A stretch of DNA of 64,000 nucleotides from Lachnospiraceae bacterium (GTDB lineage: Bacteria; Bacillota; Clostridia; Lachnospirales; Lachnospiraceae), in NCBI GenBank assembly GCA_017542245.1, contig JAFXXN010000107.1:1-64000 (forward strand), written 5' to 3'. The notes below the pieces were generated by a model. The model was not told where the DNA came from and ran no database searches. It was given only the letters and a program-made list of their open reading frames with translations. Within the stretch, counting starts at the first letter, position 1. Every line of letters starts with the position of its first letter. Shown here in pieces: positions 17,242-43,365 of the stretch. Both the position numbers and the translations under genes were made by a program.

Positions 17242-19224
17242 TCAGTCAAAGATACGCCATGCGCAGATAAAGTTTCTCTTCCACCAGTCACCCATGGTTC
17301 TGTGAACTATCTTGCCATTACTTGATGAAGCATCAATAACCTCACCGTTTCCGGCAGCAATTCCTACATGACCATAAACAACGATGATATCACCCTTCTT
17401 TATCTTTGAGAATTCAGTGATCTTCTTATATTTATTCACTGTTCTCCAGCCATAAGAAGTAATATAACTCTGTTTAACTCCTATCTGATTCAGACACCAG
17501 TAAACGAAACCTGAACAGTCGAATGTATTGGGTCCTTTGCTTCCCCATACATACTTACATCCAAGTTTTGACTTTGCAACTTTGATCAGATCATCCGGTG
17601 AACAGCTGTATGAAACAACTTTTCCGGGATCATATCCGCTGCCACTTCCGCTACCGCTTCCGCTTCCGCTGCCACTTCCACTGCCGCTTCCACTGCCGCT
17701 TCCGCTGCCGGAACCTGCTTTTACAGCATTTCCGCTTGTCAGCACACTCATAGTCTTCTGTCCGACATTACCGTCTGCAGTAAGACCATTTCTTTCCTGG
17801 AATTTCTTAACGGCTGCTTCAGTAAGATCACCGAAATATCCGGTATCACTTCCGCTAGCAAGGTATCCGTACTTGATCAGATATTTCTGAACCTGTCTTA
17901 CCGTTTCGTTATTATCACCTATTACCAGACCGTTAGGTTTAGCGTCGCCACTGATAAGAATTGCTCTGGTTGAAGGTCCAAGGTAGCCGTCAACAATACA
18001 GTCATTTCTCGACTGGAAAAGCTTAACAGCTGCCAATGTATCGTCTCCGTAGAATCCATCAGGTGTCGTGGTCAGGTATCCCAACTCTTTCAAGCGTTTC
18101 TGACACTCAAGGATAACATCACTCTTTTCTCCGAAGGAAACTATATTAGCCTTTACATTTTCGCTATACAGAAGCTCATTGGTCATAACACCTATCTTAC
18201 CATCCGGAGTAAGACCGTTAGCAGTCTGTAATGATTTAACTGCTGCATCTGTAACATCTCCGAAATGTCCGGTAATCAGATCTTTGGTAGCAAGGTAACC
18301 TAATTCGTATAAACGCTGCTGTACACGTCTGATATCTTCACCGTCCATATCCTTCTTAAGGAGGTATGATTTAGCATTTTCGTCAAACAAAATGCCTATA
18401 GTCTGTTCACCTATGATGCCGTCCTGTTTTAGATCATTCTGTCGCTGGAAAAGCTTAACAGCCTCAAGAGTTATGGGTCCGTAATGCTCTGTAGGCTCAG
18501 CGAACTCCATAAATCCGAGCTGCATCAGACGTTCCTGGATGGCTGCTACACTCTTGTCATCGGTTCCAAGATAATAAACTGACAGGAATGTGAGCGGTTC
18601 TTCTCCTGTACCGTCAGCATTTTCCGTTCCGTCAGCATTTCCTCCGTCAATGCTCTGTTCTGCATAAGTCTCATCGTTCTTGTTCTTATAGCCAAGCATT
18701 TCAAGATATTTCTGACGATTCTCATAATAAGCCATTGACAGCTGAGAATTATTCATAGAATTCTCAAGTATCTGTTCTATTCTTTCTTCCTGTGACTTTT
18801 CTCCTGAACCATCTTCAGTTTTTTCATTGTTCTCACTGCCCTGCTCCGGAGAACCTGCATCCGAAGCCGAACCATTATTAGAAGAATTATCAGATACTAC
18901 ATCAGCATCCGTTACATTTTCCGAATCAGCATTTTTCTGACCTTCTTCATAATCTTTAAGGATGTCAGAAATAGCATCAATCTCAAACTTGTTAATTCCC
19001 GGTACAACTGCATTCTGAGGAACATTTTCAACCGTTCCGTCTTTATCTATCAATACCAGTTCACCGTCAGATCCGGAAACTGCAACAGTTTTTCCTTTCA
19101 GATCAATTCCGCCGTCGTTACTTGGATTGAGTTTTGAAAAGGCTATCAATCCTCCAAGTGCTCCGACAATAATCAGCAGCACTATGGCTATAATGACCTT
19201 GGAATTATTTCCGCCATTTTTCAT
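17242..19224 (-). CDS. Secreted peptidoglycan hydrolase: peptidoglycan-binding repeats plus NlpC/P60
   Basis: A 660-residue protein with an N-terminal membrane helix at about 8-29, an acidic Ser/Asn-rich linker, four or five peptidoglycan-binding type-1 repeats (about 205-500, each with hxxLQ..L...GY and VK.FQ..N.L..DG.hG), a (Gly-Ser) linker at about 505-535, and a C-terminal NlpC/P60 domain. The catalytic Cys is residue 570 in FDCSGF, with His in YGHVGI. Such enzymes cut gamma-D-Glu-meso-DAP bonds in wall peptides. It follows purC by 35 bases without a terminator, so the two may be co-transcribed. Confidence 0.9.
   Translation of the reverse strand: MKNGGNNSKVIIAIVLLIIVGALGGLIAFSKLNPSNDGGIDLKGKTVAVSGSDGELVLIDKDGTVENVPQNAVVPGINKFEIDAISDILKDYEEGQKNADSENVTDADVVSDNSSNNGSASDAGSPEQGSENNEKTEDGSGEKSQEERIEQILENSMNNSQLSMAYYENRQKYLEMLGYKNKNDETYAEQSIDGGNADGTENADGTGEEPLTFLSVYYLGTDDKSVAAIQERLMQLGFMEFAEPTEHYGPITLEAVKLFQRQNDLKQDGIIGEQTIGILFDENAKSYLLKKDMDGEDIRRVQQRLYELGYLATKDLITGHFGDVTDAAVKSLQTANGLTPDGKIGVMTNELLYSENVKANIVSFGEKSDVILECQKRLKELGYLTTTPDGFYGDDTLAAVKLFQSRNDCIVDGYLGPSTRAILISGDAKPNGLVIGDNNETVRQVQKYLIKYGYLASGSDTGYFGDLTEAAVKKFQERNGLTADGNVGQKTMSVLTSGNAVKAGSGSGSGSGSGSGSGSGSGSGSGSGSGYDPGKVVSYSCSPDDLIKVAKSKLGCKYVWGSKGPNTFDCSGFVYWCLNQIGVKQSYITSYGWRTVNKYKKITEFSKIKKGDIIVVYGHVGIAAGNGEVIDASSSNGKIVHRTMGDWWKRNFICAWRIFD
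17635..17712. repeat. Gly-Ser coding microsatellite
   Basis: About thirteen hexamer units of the form TTCCGCTTCC/TGCCACTTCC encode an uninterrupted run of about 15 Gly-Ser pairs in the NlpC/P60 protein. Codons vary between units, so it is a degenerate tandem repeat and not a pure microsatellite. Confidence 0.85.
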
Positions 19225-32139: not shown

Positions 32140-33939
32140 CTATTTGTTTTTTTCCGTTTTGTTATATTTCTTAAAGAATTCCTTTGCAGCAGTCAGAACT
32201 TTCTTTTTCATTTTATCAGAATAAACTTTTTTATGTTCTATACTCATACAAAGGTTTGCGTTGGTCTCATCAAACCACTTAAGTAATTCGTTTTTTACGG
32301 CAGGTATGTCCTTTACCGGGATATTGATAAACATTTTTTCTCTGGCACACAAAAGAAGTATCACCTGTTCGTGTAGCGACAGAGGCGTCTGATTAGGCTG
32401 TTTCAGTAACTGCATCAATCCTGCACCATATTTCAACTGTTTTAGGGTTTGTTCATCCAGGTCACTTCCAAACTGAGAAAATACCTGCATCTCACGGTAT
32501 TGAGCAAGATCAAGTCTTATGCTTCCGACTGATTTCTTCATTACGTTTGTCTGAGCTGCTCCGCCTACACGGGATACCGAAAGACCTACATTCACAGCCG
32601 GTCTCTGTCCGGAATAGAACAGCTCACTGTCAAGAAAGATCTGTCCGTCAGTAATAGATATAATATTTGTGGGAATATATGCCGAAACATCTCCTGCCTG
32701 AGTTTCAACTATAGGAAGTGCAGTCATGCTTCCGCCGCCTTTTTCATCCGAAAGCTGGGCTGATCGTTCCAAAAGTCTTGAATGCAGATAGAAAACGTCT
32801 CCGGGATAAGCCTCTCTTCCCGGAGCCCTCTCCAGTAAAAGGCTTATAGTTCTGTAAGCTACCGCATGTTTTGAAAGATCATCATAAATTATCAGTGTAT
32901 CCCGTCCATGATTCATAAAATACTCGGCAACCGCACACCCCGAATAAGGAGCAATGTACTGAAGCGAAGCGGCATCACTTGCCGGTGATGAAACGATAAC
33001 GGTATAATCCATGGCGCCGTTCTTTTTCAGAATATTTACAACTTTCGCAACCGAGCTGGCTTTCTGGCTTATTGCCACATAGACGCAGACTACATCTTTT
33101 CCTTTCTGATTCAGGATAGTATCTATTGCTACCGATGTCTTTCCTGTCTGTCGATCTCCTATAATAAGTTCTCTTTGTCCACGCCCTATCGGGAACATAG
33201 AATCTATTGTGAGGATTCCTGTTTCCATAGGAGTACAGACTGATTTTCTGTCAATAATCCCCGGTGCGGGTTTCTCTATCGGATAGTATTTTTTCGCACC
33301 GATAGGCGGTCCTCCATCTATCGGTTTACCTAACGGGTCTATCATTCTTCCAAGTATTCTGGTGCTTATGGGAATACCTGCAGTACGACCGGTCCTCACA
33401 ACTCTTGAGCCTTCCGTGATATCAGATGCATCTGCAAACAGAATTATACCGGTAGTCCCATCAGTCCTGATATCCTGAACCATGCCCTTTACGCCGCTGT
33501 CAAAAAGCACTATCTCTCCATATGCTGCTTCCCGAAGCCCGTTTATAACCGCTATGCCGTCTCCGACTGTTACAACCTCTCCTACCTGCTGATATCCCGT
33601 ATCCAGTTCAAAACCTTCTATATCATCTTTTATAAGAGATATTATGTTCTTAAATTCATTCTCTTTCGGAAGTTTCTGGATAGATTTTCTCAGTTGTCTG
33701 ATCCTGCCAAGTGTTGTCCAGTCATAGTTGTCGTCACCAACAAATATATTAAAACCATCCACAGCCGAAGGATCTTTTTTTATAACGATCTCTACGGAAT
33801 CTGCATTATATTTTTCCATGAAGAACTTTTCAAGTCTTTTCTGCTGATCCTCATCCGGAGGATAAACACAGCGGATTTCCACCTTTAACGGCAGATCTTT
33901 TTGTTCTTCATTCTCGTCAAGAGTATCTTCAAACTTCAT
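32140..33939 (-). CDS. atpA: ATP synthase alpha subunit with N-terminal delta-subunit domain
   Basis: A 599-residue protein, about 100 longer than normal alpha. Residues 96-599 are a standard alpha subunit (IISLIKDDIEGFE, GDRQTGKTS at 261-269, SxSRVGGAAQ near the end). Residues 16-90 look like the C-terminal domain of the delta (OSCP) subunit: VEIRCVYPPDEDQQKRLEKF, then IVIKKDPSAVDGF, then GRIRQLRKSI. In delta this part binds the b stalk. No separate delta gene occurs, and its N-terminal six-helix domain is missing. The start at 33939 is chosen because GAGG lies 7-8 bases upstream; a TTG at 33978 is possible but lacks a site. Confidence 0.9.
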   Translation of the reverse strand: MKFEDTLDENEEQKDLPLKVEIRCVYPPDEDQQKRLEKFFMEKYNADSVEIVIKKDPSAVDGFNIFVGDDNYDWTTLGRIRQLRKSIQKLPKENEFKNIISLIKDDIEGFELDTGYQQVGEVVTVGDGIAVINGLREAAYGEIVLFDSGVKGMVQDIRTDGTTGIILFADASDITEGSRVVRTGRTAGIPISTRILGRMIDPLGKPIDGGPPIGAKKYYPIEKPAPGIIDRKSVCTPMETGILTIDSMFPIGRGQRELIIGDRQTGKTSVAIDTILNQKGKDVVCVYVAISQKASSVAKVVNILKKNGAMDYTVIVSSPASDAASLQYIAPYSGCAVAEYFMNHGRDTLIIYDDLSKHAVAYRTISLLLERAPGREAYPGDVFYLHSRLLERSAQLSDEKGGGSMTALPIVETQAGDVSAYIPTNIISITDGQIFLDSELFYSGQRPAVNVGLSVSRVGGAAQTNVMKKSVGSIRLDLAQYREMQVFSQFGSDLDEQTLKQLKYGAGLMQLLKQPNQTPLSLHEQVILLLCAREKMFINIPVKDIPAVKNELLKWFDETNANLCMSIEHKKVYSDKMKKKVLTAAKEFFKKYNKTEKNK

Positions 33940-33996
33940 AAAATACCTCATATATCTTTTGAGAATCAGATCTGTCAAGCTTTTTAACTAACAGAT

Positions 33997-34491
33997 TTAT
34001 ACATCTGCAGACACAGATTTTTTTAGAAAATCATCATATAGCTCATGTGTCCTTTCAGCCGATGCACTTTCGGTAAGCAGTTTCTGAGTTGCTTCAACTA
34101 CAAGCTCTCCTATCTCTGTCTGAGCGGAATCAAGTATCTGTATCTTTCTTTCTTCAGCAACTTCCTCTGCTTCCATTATGATAGCAGCTGCTTTTTCCTT
34201 TGCTGTATCTATGTATTCTTTTGCTGTCTCAGCTGTCTCCGTCTTAGCCTTCTGTTTCATCTCAGCTATCTCTTCATCAGCGTCTTTCAGCTTCTTTTCA
34301 TATTCATTCTTCAGATTTTCATTTTCTATATGCTTTTCATTAATTATCTTCTGTTGGTCCTCAAAATATTTCTGCCTTTCGGCAATAAACTTTTTTACAG
34401 GCTTAAAAAGCAGAAGAGTCAATCCTCCTGCAAGTATCACGAAATTAAGCATATGAAGAAGTATCTGCACAAAATCAATATTAAGCGGCAT
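33997..34491 (-). CDS. atpF: ATP synthase Fo b subunit
   Basis: A 164-residue b subunit with one N-terminal membrane helix (about 10-27, LLHMLNFVILAGGLTLLLF) and a long charged helix to the C-terminus that forms the peripheral stalk. FKPVKKFIAERQKYFEDQ is typical of the membrane exit. It lies between the c and alpha genes, where b and delta normally lie. Its stop is 57 bases before the fused alpha gene, leaving no room for a separate delta. Confidence 0.94.
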   Translation of the reverse strand: MPLNIDFVQILLHMLNFVILAGGLTLLLFKPVKKFIAERQKYFEDQQKIINEKHIENENLKNEYEKKLKDADEEIAEMKQKAKTETAETAKEYIDTAKEKAAAIIMEAEEVAEERKIQILDSAQTEIGELVVEATQKLLTESASAERTHELYDDFLKKSVSADV

Positions 34492-37004: not shown

Positions 37005-38018
37005 TCAATTACTGATAGAATGGATAACATAGGCCACATCTCTTATATGGTTATTGGTATTATCGTCCGGATAATATAGATACAGCATACATACTATACC
37101 TGTTGAATCGTTTTTAAAGAAAAACTCCAGGCGATAGTCCCTGCCTTCGGCAGGCTTATATACAGTCGAGCAATAATCAAATTTCTTATCACCGCCGAAC
37201 TTAACGGTTGATATGTCAACTTTAAAATCTCCCGTAAGGACTCCAAGAATATTTTTTATTATCAGTTTTTCAATATCCTTTATATCAAAAGAATCAGGAT
37301 TCTTCTTTACCTTGTCAAGATATGTTTCATATTTAAAATAAAACATATAAAAATTCTCAGGGTATTCCAGATTCTGCGGTGATATGGCATTCAGGAAGAA
37401 CTGGTATCCGTTAACATCATTGTTTGTGAGCCTTCCCATAACATATTCATCTTTCCATTCCCAAGGAAGATTAAAACTCACATGACCGTCCCTTGCAAGA
37501 TCTTTAATCTCTTCTTCCTTATATACCTTATCCGGATAATATACATAAGCCAAAAGTGGAAGTTCTTTCTCGGGATTTATGACAATGTAGTCAGCGACCA
37601 GCTTAAATGAACCGCTTGTAATTCCGATAACGTCAATCTTGCCATATACCGTAACTCTGTCACCGATTTTAAGCTGTCCGACCATTCCGTTTACCGATGA
37701 TTTTGATGTATCTACTTCAACACCGGTGTTATTTCCGAAAACTTTTATGCTTTTGCTGCCTCCTGACAAAGAAGAATATTGTATTCCTCCGTTCATGGCA
37801 ATATAAGCATCTTCATATTTATCTTTAAAACCACTCTTATTTGCGGCGAAGTAACTTCCCAGGAAATCAGGAGTCAGTACCATATACAGATGATCGTTCT
37901 CCAGGCAATACTTTAATCTTGCCGTTTGTTCCGCAGCAACTACCGAAGTATTGAATACAAATATAAGAATGGCCGAAAAAATCAGAAGAAATCTTTTCAT
38001 AACGCCCTTTATACTCAT
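37005..38018 (-). CDS. Secreted OB-fold-like protein, last gene of the ExbB/ExbD-like operon
   Basis: A 337-residue protein of unknown function. A signal peptide (about 1-29, FLLIFSAILIFVF, then VVAA) leads to the outside. The region 110-150 (GQLKIGDRVTVYGKIDVIG, then FKLVADYIVIN) resembles an OB-fold of the tRNA_anti type found in secreted proteins. The C-terminal 180 residues are mixed alpha/beta without a known motif (PAEGRDYRLEFFF). It follows the ExbD-domain gene by 30 bases on the same strand. It is the only fully secreted product of the operon, so it may be the outside partner of the motor; that is inference from position. Confidence 0.6.
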   Translation of the reverse strand: MSIKGVMKRFLLIFSAILIFVFNTSVVAAEQTARLKYCLENDHLYMVLTPDFLGSYFAANKSGFKDKYEDAYIAMNGGIQYSSLSGGSKSIKVFGNNTGVEVDTSKSSVNGMVGQLKIGDRVTVYGKIDVIGITSGSFKLVADYIVINPEKELPLLAYVYYPDKVYKEEEIKDLARDGHVSFNLPWEWKDEYVMGRLTNNDVNGYQFFLNAISPQNLEYPENFYMFYFKYETYLDKVKKNPDSFDIKDIEKLIIKNILGVLTGDFKVDISTVKFGGDKKFDYCSTVYKPAEGRDYRLEFFFKNDSTGIVCMLYLYYPDDNTNNHIRDVAYVIHSISN

Positions 38019-38048
38019 CTTTCACCTCTTTGTTCCGATCAAATTCCG

Positions 38049-38573
38049 TCAATTTGCTTCTACAGTCTCTTTGCTAAAGCTTTTTCCGTGTTCCTCCAGT
38101 ATTTCTGCTACAGCTCTGTATGTTTTTGTTTCAGCATAATTGTCAACAATTACAAAGCTTTTTCCTTCATACTGTTGATCTTCGATCAGTTCTGCAAGCT
38201 TCTCTACCGAACCGATATCATAGTCGTTTACTGATATCTTTTCTCCTGCCCCCGCCGGGTTTTCATCACCGACCATAATCCTTACTTCTGTCTTATCAGG
38301 TTTTATTTCGGGAGTATCTGTTACTTCGGGAGCATCAGTGGGAACAGGCTGGTCCGTAGGAGACGGACTGTCTGTCGGCACGGCTACCATGGTTGCCTTC
38401 TCATATGCAGCTTTTGCATTTCCTATAGAATCGCCTACAGAGCCTGCCAGATCTATAAAAGGTTTGTCCGCATTTATCAGCTTAGGCATATTCCACGGTA
38501 AAAATGCAGTAAATATCACCGTCAGCAATATACATTTGATGATCAGTGCTTTTTTATTCCAGCCATTTTTCAT
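38049..38573 (-). CDS. Membrane-anchored protein with ExbD-like extracytoplasmic domain (second)
   Basis: A 174-residue protein with one membrane helix (about 9-29), a Thr/Pro/Asp linker (about 66-90, TDSPSPTDQPVPTDAP), and a C-terminal domain of about 75 residues. This domain (KISVNDYDIGSVEKLAELI, SFVIVDNYAETKTYRAVAEIL) follows the ExbD/TolR order: a strand, a helix, a strand ending in D, then a helix. It lacks the ExbD membrane-helix Asp motif, so it cannot be the channel partner. The start overlaps the upstream gene by 20 bases. Confidence 0.55.
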   Translation of the reverse strand: MKNGWNKKALIIKCILLTVIFTAFLPWNMPKLINADKPFIDLAGSVGDSIGNAKAAYEKATMVAVPTDSPSPTDQPVPTDAPEVTDTPEIKPDKTEVRIMVGDENPAGAGEKISVNDYDIGSVEKLAELIEDQQYEGKSFVIVDNYAETKTYRAVAEILEEHGKSFSKETVEAN

Positions 38574-39036
38574 CTTCTATGCTTATCCTTACGCCTTTTT
38601 TCTCACAGATGGCTTTTATCTCACGGAATAGTGCTACCGTGGAATAGTCATCGACTATAGTTACGGTAATGTTGTTCTCTACACGATAGTCAAGATATTT
38701 ATCCAGGGTTTTACTGTCTGCCTGCTCATTCTCAACCCAGACTTCATCGCCCCGTAAAACAACACAATTTTCTTTCTTGATTTCAAGTTCTTCCTGTTCT
38801 GCAGCCGTCCTTACATGTTCTGTACTTTCGTTGCCCGAAATTCCGCCGGTTCTGTCATTTATCAGGAAATAGACAAGATATACTATAGCGCCGATAATTA
38901 CAAGGAAGAGCAGCACAAATATTCCTTTCGGCATTCTTGCTATATATAGTTTTATAGAAGGTAAAAGTATTTTAAAAACCCCTATAAGAAGAACTGCCAG
39001 CAGTACCAACAGTATTATGGCCGTGGTTTTGTTCAT
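38554..39036 (-). CDS. Membrane protein with ExbD-like extracytoplasmic domain (first)
   Basis: A 160-residue protein with two membrane helices (about 3-25 and 37-59) and a C-terminal domain of about 75 residues. The domain reads VVLRGDEVWVENEQ, DKYLDYRV, TVTIVDDYSTVALFREIKAI, KKGVRISI, similar in layout to the periplasmic domain of ExbD/TolR and to the neighbour at 38049. AGGAGAGATGCCAT precedes the start. It is the fourth gene of the operon. I know of no named family for it. Confidence 0.55.
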   Translation of the reverse strand: MNKTTAIILLVLLAVLLIGVFKILLPSIKLYIARMPKGIFVLLFLVIIGAIVYLVYFLINDRTGGISGNESTEHVRTAAEQEELEIKKENCVVLRGDEVWVENEQADSKTLDKYLDYRVENNITVTIVDDYSTVALFREIKAICEKKGVRISIEDEKWLE

Positions 39037-39108
39037 ATGGCATCTCTCCTTTCTGTAAGTGTTCCTTCGTCGTTAATTCCGATTCGCCTTTAATCCCGAA
39101 ATAACCAC

Positions 39109-39663
39109 TTATTTTATTATAATATTGGTTTTTGTATACTTGTTACGGAAATCGTTAAATATCTTTAATATTGATTCCTCATCCCTATAGAGCATCTTGT
39201 CATCTCTTTCTTTTGCAATTGAGAGAATAACAGGCAGACTATCGTCTTCACTGATAACATCATCTATCATTTTTCTGCATTCGCTCCACGCTTCTTCTTC
39301 CCTGCTGGGATTGAGTGATATCTCAACAGGAGCATTGTTATTTATCATAACGTATATAGTACGATATTTTCTGTTTTCGTGGCTATAGCCTGCATATACC
39401 GTTATAACATTAAAAAACTCGTTAATATCCTCATATGCTTTCATCTGCTGAGAATATGTGACATTCTGTGCCTCCATATCGGCTATTTTCTCTTCTGCAG
39501 TATTGACATATTGTTCAGCCTCGGCATATTTTTTATCTGCCTCTGAGTTGTAATTATCCTGTCCGGCCAGAACAACTATCAGTACAATAAATATTACATC
39601 CAGTAGCGGAGTAAGATCTATCAGAAGTCTACCGATGGATTTCTGCTTTTTTTCTTTTCCCAT
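39109..39663 (-). CDS. ExbD/TolR-like proton-channel subunit
   Basis: A 184-residue protein. A short Lys-rich cytoplasmic N-terminus is followed by one membrane helix with the ExbD/TolR signature LIDLTPLLDVIFIVLI; the Asp (residue 22) is the proton-carrying residue in the family. A coiled-coil-like stretch (about 43-85) and a C-terminal mixed domain outside the membrane follow. ATG 39663 is chosen, with GAGGG upstream and the shorter N-terminus usual for ExbD; GTG at 39684 is possible. It comes after the ExbB-like gene, as in exbBD and tolQR operons. Confidence 0.8.
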   Translation of the reverse strand: MGKEKKQKSIGRLLIDLTPLLDVIFIVLIVVLAGQDNYNSEADKKYAEAEQYVNTAEEKIADMEAQNVTYSQQMKAYEDINEFFNVITVYAGYSHENRKYRTIYVMINNNAPVEISLNPSREEEAWSECRKMIDDVISEDDSLPVILSIAKERDDKMLYRDEESILKIFNDFRNKYTKTNIIIK

Positions 39664-39700
39664 AAGCGGTACCCTCATTATCACGGTAATCTCTTAATAC

Positions 39701-40231
39701 TTATTCCTTGGTATCAAGCATATGCTTATCCCTTGCCATCTGATAATTCTGCTCAAAATTATCAAAATAGAGTTCCATTTTATTTACCGTTTTACTTACA
39801 AGTATAGCATCTGCAAATTTAAGAACTATCGCAGCGATCAATCCCCAAAACGTAGTTGACATTGATAATGCAAGGGCTTCACGCATCTGTTCTATATTAT
39901 CAAGCTGTTGGATAAGTCCTGCGACCGTACCCAGTATGCCCAGCAGAGGAAATATCGGAACAAGCTGTCCAAACGTAGAATATAAAAGCTGTGTTTTGTT
40001 AAACTCTTCTTTGTACTCTAAGGTTTCCTCCCATGTATATGCGTCCGGTGTTTTCTTTATACCTCCGGGAGTAAACTCCGTAGAACGATTCTTTTTATGC
40101 TTTTCGTCTATTGTATTCTGAAGCTTTGAAATGTTCATTACAACATAGGCAAAGCCGGCTATTGTTATTATAGCAAGTCCCAGAATTATTCCGTTAATTG
40201 AATGTCCTATGATAATAGCTAATGATTCCAT
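39701..40231 (-). CDS. ExbB/TolQ/MotA-family proton-channel protein
   Basis: A 176-residue protein with three membrane helices: about 5-33, 84-108 and 121-146. The family core is present: FPLLGILGTVAGLIQQ (about 94-109) and ALALSMSTTFWGLIAAI (about 119-135), the helix pair that lines the ExbB pore. A cytoplasmic loop of about 50 residues lies between helices 1 and 2. The start at 40231 has AAAGGA seven bases upstream; the frame also opens at GTG 40258. It probably forms an ion-driven rotary pentamer around the ExbD-like protein. Confidence 0.85.
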   Translation of the reverse strand: MESLAIIIGHSINGIILGLAIITIAGFAYVVMNISKLQNTIDEKHKKNRSTEFTPGGIKKTPDAYTWEETLEYKEEFNKTQLLYSTFGQLVPIFPLLGILGTVAGLIQQLDNIEQMREALALSMSTTFWGLIAAIVLKFADAILVSKTVNKMELYFDNFEQNYQMARDKHMLDTKE

Positions 40232-40254
40232 ATAATCATCCTTTCTTAAACCTG

Positions 40255-41046
40255 TCACTCCTTCGGAGTCCTTATTCCTTTGTTTTCCCTGACCGGAGCT
40301 ATCAATACCCTTCCAGTTCCGGAATATACATTTACGAAGCCTTCACCTGAAGCTAATGAACCTATCAATGTACTTGTTGTTTTCTCCACGGTAAACTTTA
40401 AAGACGATGACCAGGCTACCGCCATGTTTCCATCAATCTTTATTACATCTTCCTTTAAATCTGCGACTATAAGCTCGTCGGAAGGAACCGGGCTTTCCAA
40501 GGCAACTATTCCTTCCCCCATAAGTCTCGTATTAAATATGCCTTCATTTCCAAGTATAAGAGAAGAAACATTTTTTCTGGCAACCACGTCAAGTTCAACC
40601 GTATCCTCACATGCAAGGAACATGCCGTCTTCTATCACAACATCTCCCTCCCAATCGTTCAGATCGATCAGCAATATGTGATAAAACGTAGGCTCCAGTA
40701 CAAGATTTCCTATACCAACATAATGCGGTTTTATAATAGTCTCGCTTGTCACTGTACTTTTAACAAGCTTTTTAAAGAAATCTCCTGCTCCTTTAACTCC
40801 CGTAGACGCTTCTACATCTCCCATCATCATCTGCATCTCGCCTGCCTGAACATATACCCCGGCTTTATCATCAATATCAACTATCAGCTGGCGTTTACGA
40901 ACATTCATCTCAGACGCAAAATAAGCTTCCTGAGCCATCTTGGGAGATACTGATATATCCCTCAGATACTCGATCACAGTAAATCTTCCGAGATTGTCAA
41001 TAATCTTTCTCGACTCGGTTTCCGCCATCAAATTTGTCTTTATCAT
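40255..41046 (-). CDS. AIM24-family protein
   Basis: A 263-residue all-beta protein of the AIM24 (TIGR00266) type, with repeated beta segments such as VYVQAGEMQMMMGDVEA, FYHILLIDLNDWEGDVVIEDGMFLAC and LMGEGIVALESP. It is named after the yeast mitochondrial protein and has a trimeric TRAP-like fold of unknown activity. GGAGG precedes the ATG. It is the first gene of the motor operon under the promoter at 41144-41172. AIM24 beside an ExbB/ExbD pair is not a context I know from a described system. Confidence 0.82.
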   Translation of the reverse strand: MIKTNLMAETESRKIIDNLGRFTVIEYLRDISVSPKMAQEAYFASEMNVRKRQLIVDIDDKAGVYVQAGEMQMMMGDVEASTGVKGAGDFFKKLVKSTVTSETIIKPHYVGIGNLVLEPTFYHILLIDLNDWEGDVVIEDGMFLACEDTVELDVVARKNVSSLILGNEGIFNTRLMGEGIVALESPVPSDELIVADLKEDVIKIDGNMAVAWSSSLKFTVEKTTSTLIGSLASGEGFVNVYSGTGRVLIAPVRENKGIRTPKE

Positions 41047-41143: not shown

Positions 41144-41172
41144 ATTTTACTACATTTTACCATATTTGTAAA
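41144..41172 (-). promoter_or_regulatory. Promoter of the AIM24-ExbB-ExbD operon
   Basis: On the minus strand TTTACA (41167-41172) and TAAAAT (41144-41149) are separated by 17 bases. The leader is about 90 bases. The -35 is eight bases from the -35 of the divergent beta-helix gene. Confidence 0.7.
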
Positions 41173-41238: not shown

Positions 41239-43365
41239 ATGAAAAAAGCCGGATATTTTTTACTGTTAACATTCATCGCCCTGTGTTTCATTGGCATCAG
41301 CATTCCCAAAGCTGCTTTTGCGGCCTCTTATGCTAAAACCATTAACGTAAAACTCAAAGACGGACAGGATGCCACCGATGCTATCCAAAAAGCTCTTGAT
41401 GAAGCAGCAAAAGCAGGTACAAAAAAGAAACAGGCACTTGTAAAAGTTCCTGCCGGAGAATATTATATCAGCAAAACTCTGGTAATAGGTTCCAATACGT
41501 ACTTAAAGCTGGATAAAAACACCTATATCAGAAAAAATCCGAAAGCCAAGGATCCTATTCTGCATATGCTTCATACAAAACAGGGCTCGAAGGGTAAATA
41601 TTCCGATAATTCCCGTATAACGGTACAGGGCGGAACCTGGGATACGGAATTTATTCGATATAACGAGACCTCCAGTGGATCCATCTTCATGTTTGCCCAT
41701 ACAAATACACTGAAAATTCTGGATGTAACTTTATGTAACAGTTACGGAACCCATCTTATTGAATTGGGAGGCGTAAAAAACTGTACAATTAAAAACTGTA
41801 CATTATATGGCTTTGAAGCTCCTGCCGGGGATGTTGATAAGGAAGCTATACAGATTGATGTCTGTCATTCCGATTCCATCCTTCCCTGCGGCGAACCGTA
41901 TGATGACTCTCCATGTACCGGGATTACAATATCCGGTTGTGAGATTTACGGATACCCCAGAGCCATAGGATCGCATATGATGGTTGAAGGTATCTATCAT
42001 AAAAACATTAAGATACTGGATAATAATATTCACGATATTTCCGCCGCCGCTGTATATGGGTATAATTATGCAAATCTGACCATCAGCATGAATATTATGG
42101 AAAATGTCTGCTGCGGTATCCAGTTAAAAACCGATTCTGTAGCTAAGAAAACAATTCTTACCAGGAACAAGGGCGTAAAAGCCATGAAGATATCAAAGAA
42201 CAATTTCAAGATTAATATATCCGATAACACGATCACCCTTGATAAAGAAATCTCACAGGATAAAGCTGACAGCGGCACCTCAATAGGCGTTTTCATCTAT
42301 GGTTCAGAAAAATATCCTATGAAAAATGTTGCTATATCGGACAATACAATAACTTGTAATTCATCAGGTGTATATCTGCGTTTCATTGATGATTCCACGA
42401 TATCCGGTAATATCATTAACAGACATGAAAATGTAATATCCGTTGAGAACACCAAATTTGCCGAAGATGCCATAAAACTTCTTTCATCCTGCAATGCTGT
42501 GATAGATGACAATTATATCTCATCATCAAACAATGTATCTTTTGAGAACGGTATCGCCTTAAGAGACGGGAGTACAAATGCCGTTTTGAACCGTAATGAA
42601 ATCAATTCAACTACAAAATCCGGGCTGGGAATTTATGATAACAGTTCTGTTTCCGGAGGATCCGGAACCATTATCAATAACTCCGGTCTAAACGGAATCA
42701 CAATAGTTAACTCCGGTGTTACTCTTTATAACAGCACAATTTCCGATTCAGCAGAACACGGAATTTCCGTAAGAAACGGAGGTTTTGTTGAACTTAATGA
42801 TTGTACCGTCACCGGAAGTAAAAGTAACGGAATTAATATAGCTGCTGACAGTTCCGCCCGTCTTAAAGGCGGACAGGTAAGTTTCAGTTCAGGCAAAGGC
42901 GTAAATCTTATGGCATCCGCCACTTTATATGCTTCAGATCTTCAGGTAATAAATAACACCGGAAAAGGAGTTGATATTGCTGAAAACTGTGTGGCTGAAC
43001 TTTATGATTGTATCATTTCCGAAAACAGCGCTAACGGGATATTTGTCGACGGTGAGAACAGTGAAACCACTATCACGGGATGTACAATTAAAAATAACAG
43101 TGCCAGCGCCATCCAATTAAAAAACGGCCTGGTACATATAAGCAACAACAGTCTCATAAATAACTGTCTTGGAGAAACTGACGGAAAGGCAGTTGCAGTA
43201 TTCGCCGGTATTTCGGGCGAAATTACAAACAATTCTTTTTCCAATCCAAACACTAAATTTGAACTGTTTATAGCATCCGATGTGATTTTAACACCCTATC
43301 TTTCAACTGTAAAACGTACCATGGCTTACGGCTATACCGATATCGGAGGTAACACTTTCAACTGA
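41239..43365 (+). CDS. Secreted right-handed parallel beta-helix protein
   Basis: A 708-residue protein with a signal peptide (about 1-29, ending AAFAAS). The body consists of many turns of a parallel beta-helix, with repeated NxI.GN.I or G..I..SG..L asparagine-ladder units (for example TISGNIINRHENV, GIYDNSSVSGGSGTIINNSGLNG, SENSANGIFVDGENS). The N-terminal part (ATDAIQKALDEAAKAG, LVKVPAGEYYISKTL) matches the pectate-lyase superfamily domain. The active site is not apparent, so it may be a polysaccharide lyase, epimerase or adhesin. It diverges from the motor operon. No sorting signal is seen. Confidence 0.82.
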   Translation: MKKAGYFLLLTFIALCFIGISIPKAAFAASYAKTINVKLKDGQDATDAIQKALDEAAKAGTKKKQALVKVPAGEYYISKTLVIGSNTYLKLDKNTYIRKNPKAKDPILHMLHTKQGSKGKYSDNSRITVQGGTWDTEFIRYNETSSGSIFMFAHTNTLKILDVTLCNSYGTHLIELGGVKNCTIKNCTLYGFEAPAGDVDKEAIQIDVCHSDSILPCGEPYDDSPCTGITISGCEIYGYPRAIGSHMMVEGIYHKNIKILDNNIHDISAAAVYGYNYANLTISMNIMENVCCGIQLKTDSVAKKTILTRNKGVKAMKISKNNFKINISDNTITLDKEISQDKADSGTSIGVFIYGSEKYPMKNVAISDNTITCNSSGVYLRFIDDSTISGNIINRHENVISVENTKFAEDAIKLLSSCNAVIDDNYISSSNNVSFENGIALRDGSTNAVLNRNEINSTTKSGLGIYDNSSVSGGSGTIINNSGLNGITIVNSGVTLYNSTISDSAEHGISVRNGGFVELNDCTVTGSKSNGINIAADSSARLKGGQVSFSSGKGVNLMASATLYASDLQVINNTGKGVDIAENCVAELYDCIISENSANGIFVDGENSETTITGCTIKNNSASAIQLKNGLVHISNNSLINNCLGETDGKAVAVFAGISGEITNNSFSNPNTKFELFIASDVILTPYLSTVKRTMAYGYTDIGGNTFN

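Follow-up and report, generated by a model that had tools for sequence, protein, structure and literature searches.

We analyzed a stretch of 64,000 nucleotides (nt) from a Lachnospiraceae bacterium (assembly GCA_017542245.1, contig JAFXXN010000107.1, positions 1 to 64,000 of the forward strand), hereafter the window. At positions 37005–41046, the list of open reading frames (ORFs) contains six leftward ORFs, A to F (Table 1), which constitute a real, conserved and selected motor module of the ExbBD superfamily with a new third-subunit family, found in bacteria without outer-membrane markers. The host is a gut bacterium with a single membrane, the motor belongs to a kind that in other bacteria is regarded as working for the outer membrane, and its extra parts may pass force to the cell wall.

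Organization and selection of the operon

Genes B to F are compactly packed. The intergenic gaps are 23 nt between A and B (measured from the B start codon at 40231), 37 nt for B–C, 72 nt for C–D, −20 nt for D–E and 30 nt for E–F. A preliminary description of this region had placed six leftward genes under one promoter. The six leftward ORFs stand, whereas the single promoter is inferred: the region holds 20 promoter-like sites, compared with 17.7 (standard deviation 4.1) in shuffled sequence, so that such sites are no commoner than in shuffles. Each of the six is a real gene subject to purifying selection, with proportions of nonsynonymous differences (pN, 0.06–0.47) far below those of synonymous differences (pS, 0.71–0.86) in comparisons with five relatives; pS is near saturation, so the pN/pS ratios are rough. 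Against the four nearest relatives, B and A evolve slowest and the outer proteins fastest.

Table 1. Features of the motor operon in the window.
Feature	Position	Strand	Description	Remark
A	40255..41046	-	AIM24 (DUF124) protein of the lower-scoring AIM24 group, 263 amino acids; accessory, at 8 of 27 motor loci	PF01987, E = 5.7e-40
B	39701..40258	-	ExbB/TolQ-type ring subunit, three predicted transmembrane segments, FPLLGILGTVAGL	Likelier start ATG at 40231
C	39109..39684	-	Probable ExbD/TolR-type axle subunit; one transmembrane segment with IDLTPLLDVIF, long stalk, divergent outer domain	Likelier start ATG at 39663
Channel Asp codon of C	39598..39600	-	Asp22 when numbering begins with the 39663 ATG	Asp in 27 of 27 loci
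D	38554..39036	-	X-family protein; two predicted transmembrane segments, ExbD-like outer domain, without the channel Asp	
E	38049..38573	-	X-family protein; one predicted transmembrane segment, conserved juxtamembrane motif (L-x-N-x-D...I-D-L), Pro-rich linker, ExbD-like outer domain, without the channel Asp	
F	37005..38018	-	Exported or anchored protein; hydrophobic signal-peptide-like N-terminus, OB-fold-like N-terminal half, C-terminal half without assignment	
Promoter-like site	41144..41172	-	Upstream of A, 10 of 12 matches	Regional site count not above chance

The motor core

The product of B matches the MotA_ExbB family (PF01618) with an E value of 3.1e-11 and 43.6 bits, above the cut-off of 22.9, and so carries the ring-subunit domain. 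The profile of the B family matches the structures of MotA, TolQ, PomA and ExbB. Three transmembrane segments are predicted for B by a crude hydropathy scan that found only two in 5 of 25 B proteins. Judged by these profiles, B is an ExbB/TolQ-type ring protein, in agreement with the three-helix ExbB/TolQ-like protein of the preliminary description.

C of the window, the axle subunit, matches ExbD (PF02472) at E = 0.083 and 13.4 bits, under the cut-off of 25.4, and 21 of the 24 C proteins scanned, including that of the window, match this family at E ≤ 1 (best 1.2e-5). The channel Asp lies in the transmembrane segment, within the ExbD/TolR motif, at all 27 loci surveyed (see below), in agreement with the earlier reading of C as an ExbD/TolR-like protein with an Asp that would carry protons. 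Beyond this residue, C proteins extend for 145–252 residues, compared with 116 in Escherichia coli ExbD, and hence have a longer stalk. A Pfam scan found no OmpA-type domain in C of the window.

A third-subunit family with an ExbD-like outer domain

D and E have no curated Pfam family of their own. Together with the single protein, X, that occupies their place at other loci, they are mutually homologous (hhalign probability 98–98.5%), and by sequence they belong to one undescribed family, which we call X. When the trimmed outer domains of 40 X, D and E proteins were compared with those of 14 real ExbD/TolR proteins, they matched with a probability of 89.6% (E = 1.9e-6, score 35.4, 74 columns). 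The reversed profile scored 11.9 against this 35.4, and 295 of 300 column shuffles scored at most 12.5; in the other five the scores were broken, lying near 132 across 17 columns or fewer. Across the three sets of 300 shuffles made for the X–ExbD, C–ExbD and X–C comparisons, 5, 4 and 6 shuffles exceeded the observed scores; these 15 are broken scores of 128–135 over 2 to 45 columns and were not counted as real, and the next best values were 12.5, 12.8 and 13.3. The match holds for trimmed profiles, because only the trimmed outer domains matched real ExbD/TolR.

The signal varied among sub-profiles, with probabilities of 30% for D-type (13 proteins), 74% for E-type (13 proteins) and 93% for single X proteins, and three disjoint four-row ExbD/TolR profiles matched X at 86%, 86% and 43%. 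Weak Pfam ExbD matches in the same register were obtained for three of ten X proteins scanned (E = 0.0068, 0.019 and 0.072), and four of 38 matched ExbD at E ≤ 10. X was also compared with the C-terminal domains of TonB (four rows) and TolA (one sequence); both gave 0.1%, and an identity of X with TonB or TolA was rejected by profile. We conclude that X proteins are probably ExbD-domain proteins, an assignment with good but not final support. The preliminary description had proposed two further membrane proteins with an ExbD-like outer domain and no channel Asp, and the comparison of sequence profiles supports this. The motor thus appears to divide what ExbD combines, with the channel helix carried by C and the more ExbD-like outer domain by X.

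The X family lacks the channel Asp that C has at all 27 loci. In the best 19-residue transmembrane window of the 40 X, D and E proteins, an acidic residue occurs in three and a His in one, all at or beside the window end. Within E, conservation is highest in the juxtamembrane segment, with a mean pairwise identity of 0.43 against 0.22–0.24 in the other parts (12 sequences). In the window and close relatives of it, a Pro-rich linker comes next.

Distribution and two types of locus

To survey the motor we used a profile of 25 B proteins, built from the surveyed loci and the loci of four named Lachnospiraceae metagenome-assembled genomes (MAGs). In 299 genomes of the same family, it gave 22 matches at E ≤ 2.3e-28 in 21 genomes, the source genome included, and a second, clearly separate group at E ≥ 1.4e-9 that we took as MotA by score and frame. 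The MotA-like frames are mostly 260–310 amino acids long; three differ (117, 216 and 517) among the matches listed. A search with a single B sequence returned the same 20 other genomes and one flagellar MotA. Among 391 genomes of the class, the source genome and two others matched at E ≤ 1e-12; among 398 of the phylum, there were matches in the source genome and three others (loci L097–L099). These three are ordinary exbB-exbD-tonB operons with a proline-rich TonB, which in L099 is interrupted by a stretch of N.

Twenty-seven distinct non-flagellar loci were compared: the window, four from the named MAGs, one from each of 20 family genomes and two from other class members. A locus that is MotAB by eye (G097/L051) and the second copy in genome G111 were left out. 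In G111, the same motor operon lies on contigs C37 and C63 (L032, L033) with identical match scores, reflecting either duplication or an assembly artefact. At L026, L027, L038, L046 and L050, some motor genes are overlain by wrong-strand ORFs and were read from the ORF lists.

All 27 loci encode B, C and an X-type protein. At 25 of them X comes directly after C, and at the other two, L047 and L049, it lies ahead of B. Thirteen, the window included, are of type I, with two X genes, of which D has two predicted transmembrane segments and E one (none called in L035). F is present in 12 of these 13, the proteins of L036 and L039 being assigned by place and alignment at 19% and 22% identity; in F's place, the remaining type I locus has an unrelated protein of 201 amino acids without a Pfam match (L038:8726-9331). 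Type II comprises 14 loci with a single X, and no F was seen in them (at L049, the contig runs on for just 100 bases beyond C). In the B tree, taken as unrooted, the two types are the two sides of one branch (support 99/96); several branches are long. D and E look like a doubling of X, the constant third part. Gene order is conserved among relatives, in keeping with the preliminary description: B-C-D-E-F recurs in 12 of 13 type I loci, and with a same-strand upstream AIM24 gene the six-gene order is found in 7 of 13.

At the level of whole genomes, every one of the 23 motor-bearing genomes has an X match at its motor locus, with E values from 2.2e-34 to 6.3e-9 (G352). Only G352 and G654 are independent cases, since the other 21 fed the X profile. 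No convincing X was found in 21 motor-free genomes, where the best match (8.1e-6) was partial and inside a longer frame. The source genome has one further partial X match, with stops, at 5e-8.

Comparison with known systems

Models for Omp85 (PF01103) and the TonB-dependent receptor (PF00593) matched none of the 23 motor-bearing genomes at E ≤ 1e-3; as positive controls, they matched 7 and 3 of 14 known genomes, respectively. This agrees with the earlier expectation that no outer membrane would be present. The operon encodes a motor of the ExbBD superfamily, its host bacteria have no outer-membrane markers, and an unfamiliar third subunit takes the gene position of TonB.

The Ton system, including the operons at L097–L099, shares with it a ring protein, an Asp-bearing axle and a third membrane-anchored protein in the same gene order, the third protein having a transmembrane segment, a linker and a small end domain. 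It differs in that the end domain of X is probably ExbD-like and not TonB-like, the tether is short, the conserved SHLS-type transmembrane His is lacking, the C stalk is longer and neither receptor nor Omp85 was matched in the 23 genomes. Tol-Pal (TolQ-TolR-TolA) has the same motor core and, in TolR, an outer domain of the kind that X appears to have; unlike TolA, X lacks a TolA-like C-terminal domain (compared with one TolA sequence), and Omp85 gave no match in those 23 genomes. The generic ion transporters (GIT), a non-flagellar class that includes members of unknown function, likewise have Exb/Tol-type A and B subunits with a small cytoplasmic part, but no third ExbD-domain subunit was found in their description in the excerpt of PMC12505986 consulted. 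That excerpt also calls Zorya ZorAB a distant relative within the superfamily (PMC12505986); neither B nor C has a PADLOC match. Force transducers with a von Willebrand factor A (vWA) domain have been proposed beside tolQ/tolR-like genes in place of TonB or TolA; as far as the excerpt of PMC12204202 goes, they differ from X in having a vWA and not an ExbD domain, a conserved His or the Asp itself in their transmembrane segment, and an occurrence in other phyla. At one locus, a protein with weak vWA-domain matches is encoded just upstream of the motor genes (L034:5897-6592), recalling those transducers.

A defence system was rejected, as A, B, C, D and F had no PADLOC match and E had only PDC-S28 at 0.03, which is at chance level. 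A phage origin was likewise rejected, with weak PHROG matches only (best 0.0028, for C). Among the titles listed in a search of the openly licensed PMC literature, none deals with this operon or with an ExbD-domain third subunit, which is no proof of novelty.

Proposed mechanism and alternatives

On balance, we lean towards reading the operon as an ion-driven membrane motor of the ExbBD/TolQR superfamily that works without an outer membrane and in which D and E are non-conducting adaptors taking up its motion. By homology, we infer a pentamer of B around a dimer of C (5:2), in which ion flow past the Asp of C would make ring and axle rotate relative to one another, as known 5:2 motors do. D and E would each place an ExbD-type outer domain on a membrane anchor of its own, in the position that TonB has in exbB-exbD-tonB; they would dock on the motor, E through its conserved segment just outside the membrane, and transmit the motion, by way of a short tether rich in Pro and Gly, to the cell wall or exported F. 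AIM24 may help on the cytoplasmic side in some relatives. According to the excerpt of PMC10907165, the TonB D-box, just after the membrane anchor, is captured by the ExbD dimer as an added strand. Because the best conserved segment of E, the juxtamembrane one, sits where TonB has its D-box, we favor E and X as short-reach transducers or adaptors that would pick up motion from C and work on the wall or F.

A more far-reaching version, which we offer tentatively as possible rather than probable, is a Ton-like machine reinvented for one-membrane cells: an ExbBD-type rotary motor whose transducer would be, instead of TonB, an ExbD outer domain that has become separate and has an anchor to itself, present as two specialised copies on one branch, and driving a wall-side or exported partner. 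If true, it would constitute a mechanical ion-powered process at the Gram-positive wall besides flagellar rotation. The module is relevant to the capabilities of ExbBD-type motors that have no outer-membrane partners, and it offers a tangible case in which to study the role of an ion motor at this wall.

Several results weigh against the adaptor interpretation. The D-type proteins alone reach only 30% against ExbD/TolR, and full-length X and C profiles did not match in either direction. Even the outer domains match poorly, both between X and C (4%, score 18.7, best sound shuffle 13.3) and between C and ExbD/TolR (1.5%, score 16.2, best sound shuffle 12.8). In a search of the X domain against the PDB, ExbD chains appeared weakly (0.18 and 0.43), behind YlbL (0.014) and polyubiquitins; where alignments were displayed, the ubiquitin rows were sums of nine or four weak repeats. 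The transmembrane His that TonB and TolA use on the motor is absent from X except in one of 40 best windows, where it stands at the edge, so docking on B is not supported by this residue. The flanking genes share no function or theme among ten picked ORFs scanned, and the motor is patchy, occurring in 21 of 299 family genomes and missing from the only other genome of the same genus there (G134). Taken as a whole, the preliminary reading is partly supported.

Two live alternatives assign D, E and X another role on a working motor. They could be its wall anchor rather than force receivers, their ExbD-type domains holding peptidoglycan so that ring or axle works against the wall, in the manner of the outer domain of MotB and, reportedly, of TolR. 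The outer domain of TolR can bind peptidoglycan, X has by profile an outer domain of the ExbD/TolR kind, and one or two transmembrane segments with a short tether would suit an anchor near the inner face of the wall. We nevertheless consider this unlikely, as it leaves unexplained both the outer domain and long stalk of C and the conserved juxtamembrane motif of E. Alternatively, the X proteins could regulate the motor: paired with C's outer domain, their ExbD-type domains would act as a plug or brake and would open the ion path when F senses a signal from the wall or envelope. In the excerpt of PMC10907165, ExbD outer domains form a dimer around a peptide, which makes hetero-pairing of X and C domains plausible, and the invariable presence of X in the B–C cluster would fit such a role. 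The proposed sensor F is not general, however, being absent from the type II loci as surveyed, and we regard this as improbable.

The remaining alternatives concern the motor itself. Ton systems in monoderm Clostridia have been called "likely non-functional" in the excerpt of PMC12204202, and this printed proposal, together with the patchy distribution, would allow a vestigial Ton remnant. Such a remnant is very improbable, and already unlikely from selection: pN lies far below pS in all six genes, the channel Asp is retained throughout, and a different conserved third subunit, doubled on one branch, stands in TonB's stead. Least credible is an accessory flagellar stator. MotAB belongs to the same superfamily and has an Asp-bearing axle, and 15 of 21 motor-bearing family genomes have a second B-profile match, with a MotA-typical frame and score among the matches listed. 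The B profile separates the two groups, though; C of the window has no OmpA-type domain in the Pfam scan, B has three and not four predicted transmembrane segments, and six of the 21 genomes (G114, G189, G215, G238, G266 and G298) have no second match, candidates in G114 and G298 being only partly scored. The flagellar candidate was rejected, and the motor is not tied to flagella.

Accessory genes A and F

The AIM24 assignment of A in the preliminary description is confirmed, with 138 bits against 244 bits for the other AIM24 copy in the genome; two proteins with solved structures and unknown function (1pg6 and 1yox) are relatives of A. The preliminary description also counted AIM24 in the motor operon; A lies beside B in the window, but AIM24 is limited to one branch and is not part of the core. 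It adjoins B in 8 of 27 loci, all of type I, seven times upstream on the same strand and once divergently. AIM24 proteins of 64 genomes fall into two main score groups, plus two matches near 1e-18. Among the 23 motor-bearing genomes, four have the group of A, each time beside B; among the 41 others, eight have it, located elsewhere. AIM24 is therefore an addition on part of one branch. In those eight motor-free genomes, no neighbor common to them was found by eye, and AIM24 was dropped as a guide to function. Two motor-free genomes (at L087 and L089) carry AIM24 genes of this group as tandem pairs, in L087 between ABC-transporter ATPase-like genes.

F agrees with the secreted, OB-fold-like protein proposed earlier: besides its signal-like N-terminus, its OB-type half matches PF12869 at 3.6e-4, which falls slightly short of the cut-off. 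Of 12 F proteins, that of the window included, 8 match this family at E ≤ 1 (best 3.7e-9).

Neighboring genes and other observations in the window

The operon is flanked by a divergent gene for a large secreted right-handed β-helix protein (41239–43365, + strand; PF13229, E = 1.2e-32) and by a convergent gene that encodes a dehydrogenase by eye. At L026, an ORF of similar length, identified from length and place only, takes the place of the β-helix gene. Further away, a gene on the − strand (17242–19224) encodes, by eye, a secreted protein that is NlpC-like and has repeats of the peptidoglycan-binding type as well as a long GSGS linker. The ATP synthase α subunit (32140–33978, − strand; 612 amino acids) begins with the C-terminal half of δ/OSCP (PF00213 positions 92–171 at residues 16–99, E = 6.8e-9), and no separate δ gene lies between b (33997–34491) and α; by sequence, this gene looks like a δ–α fusion.

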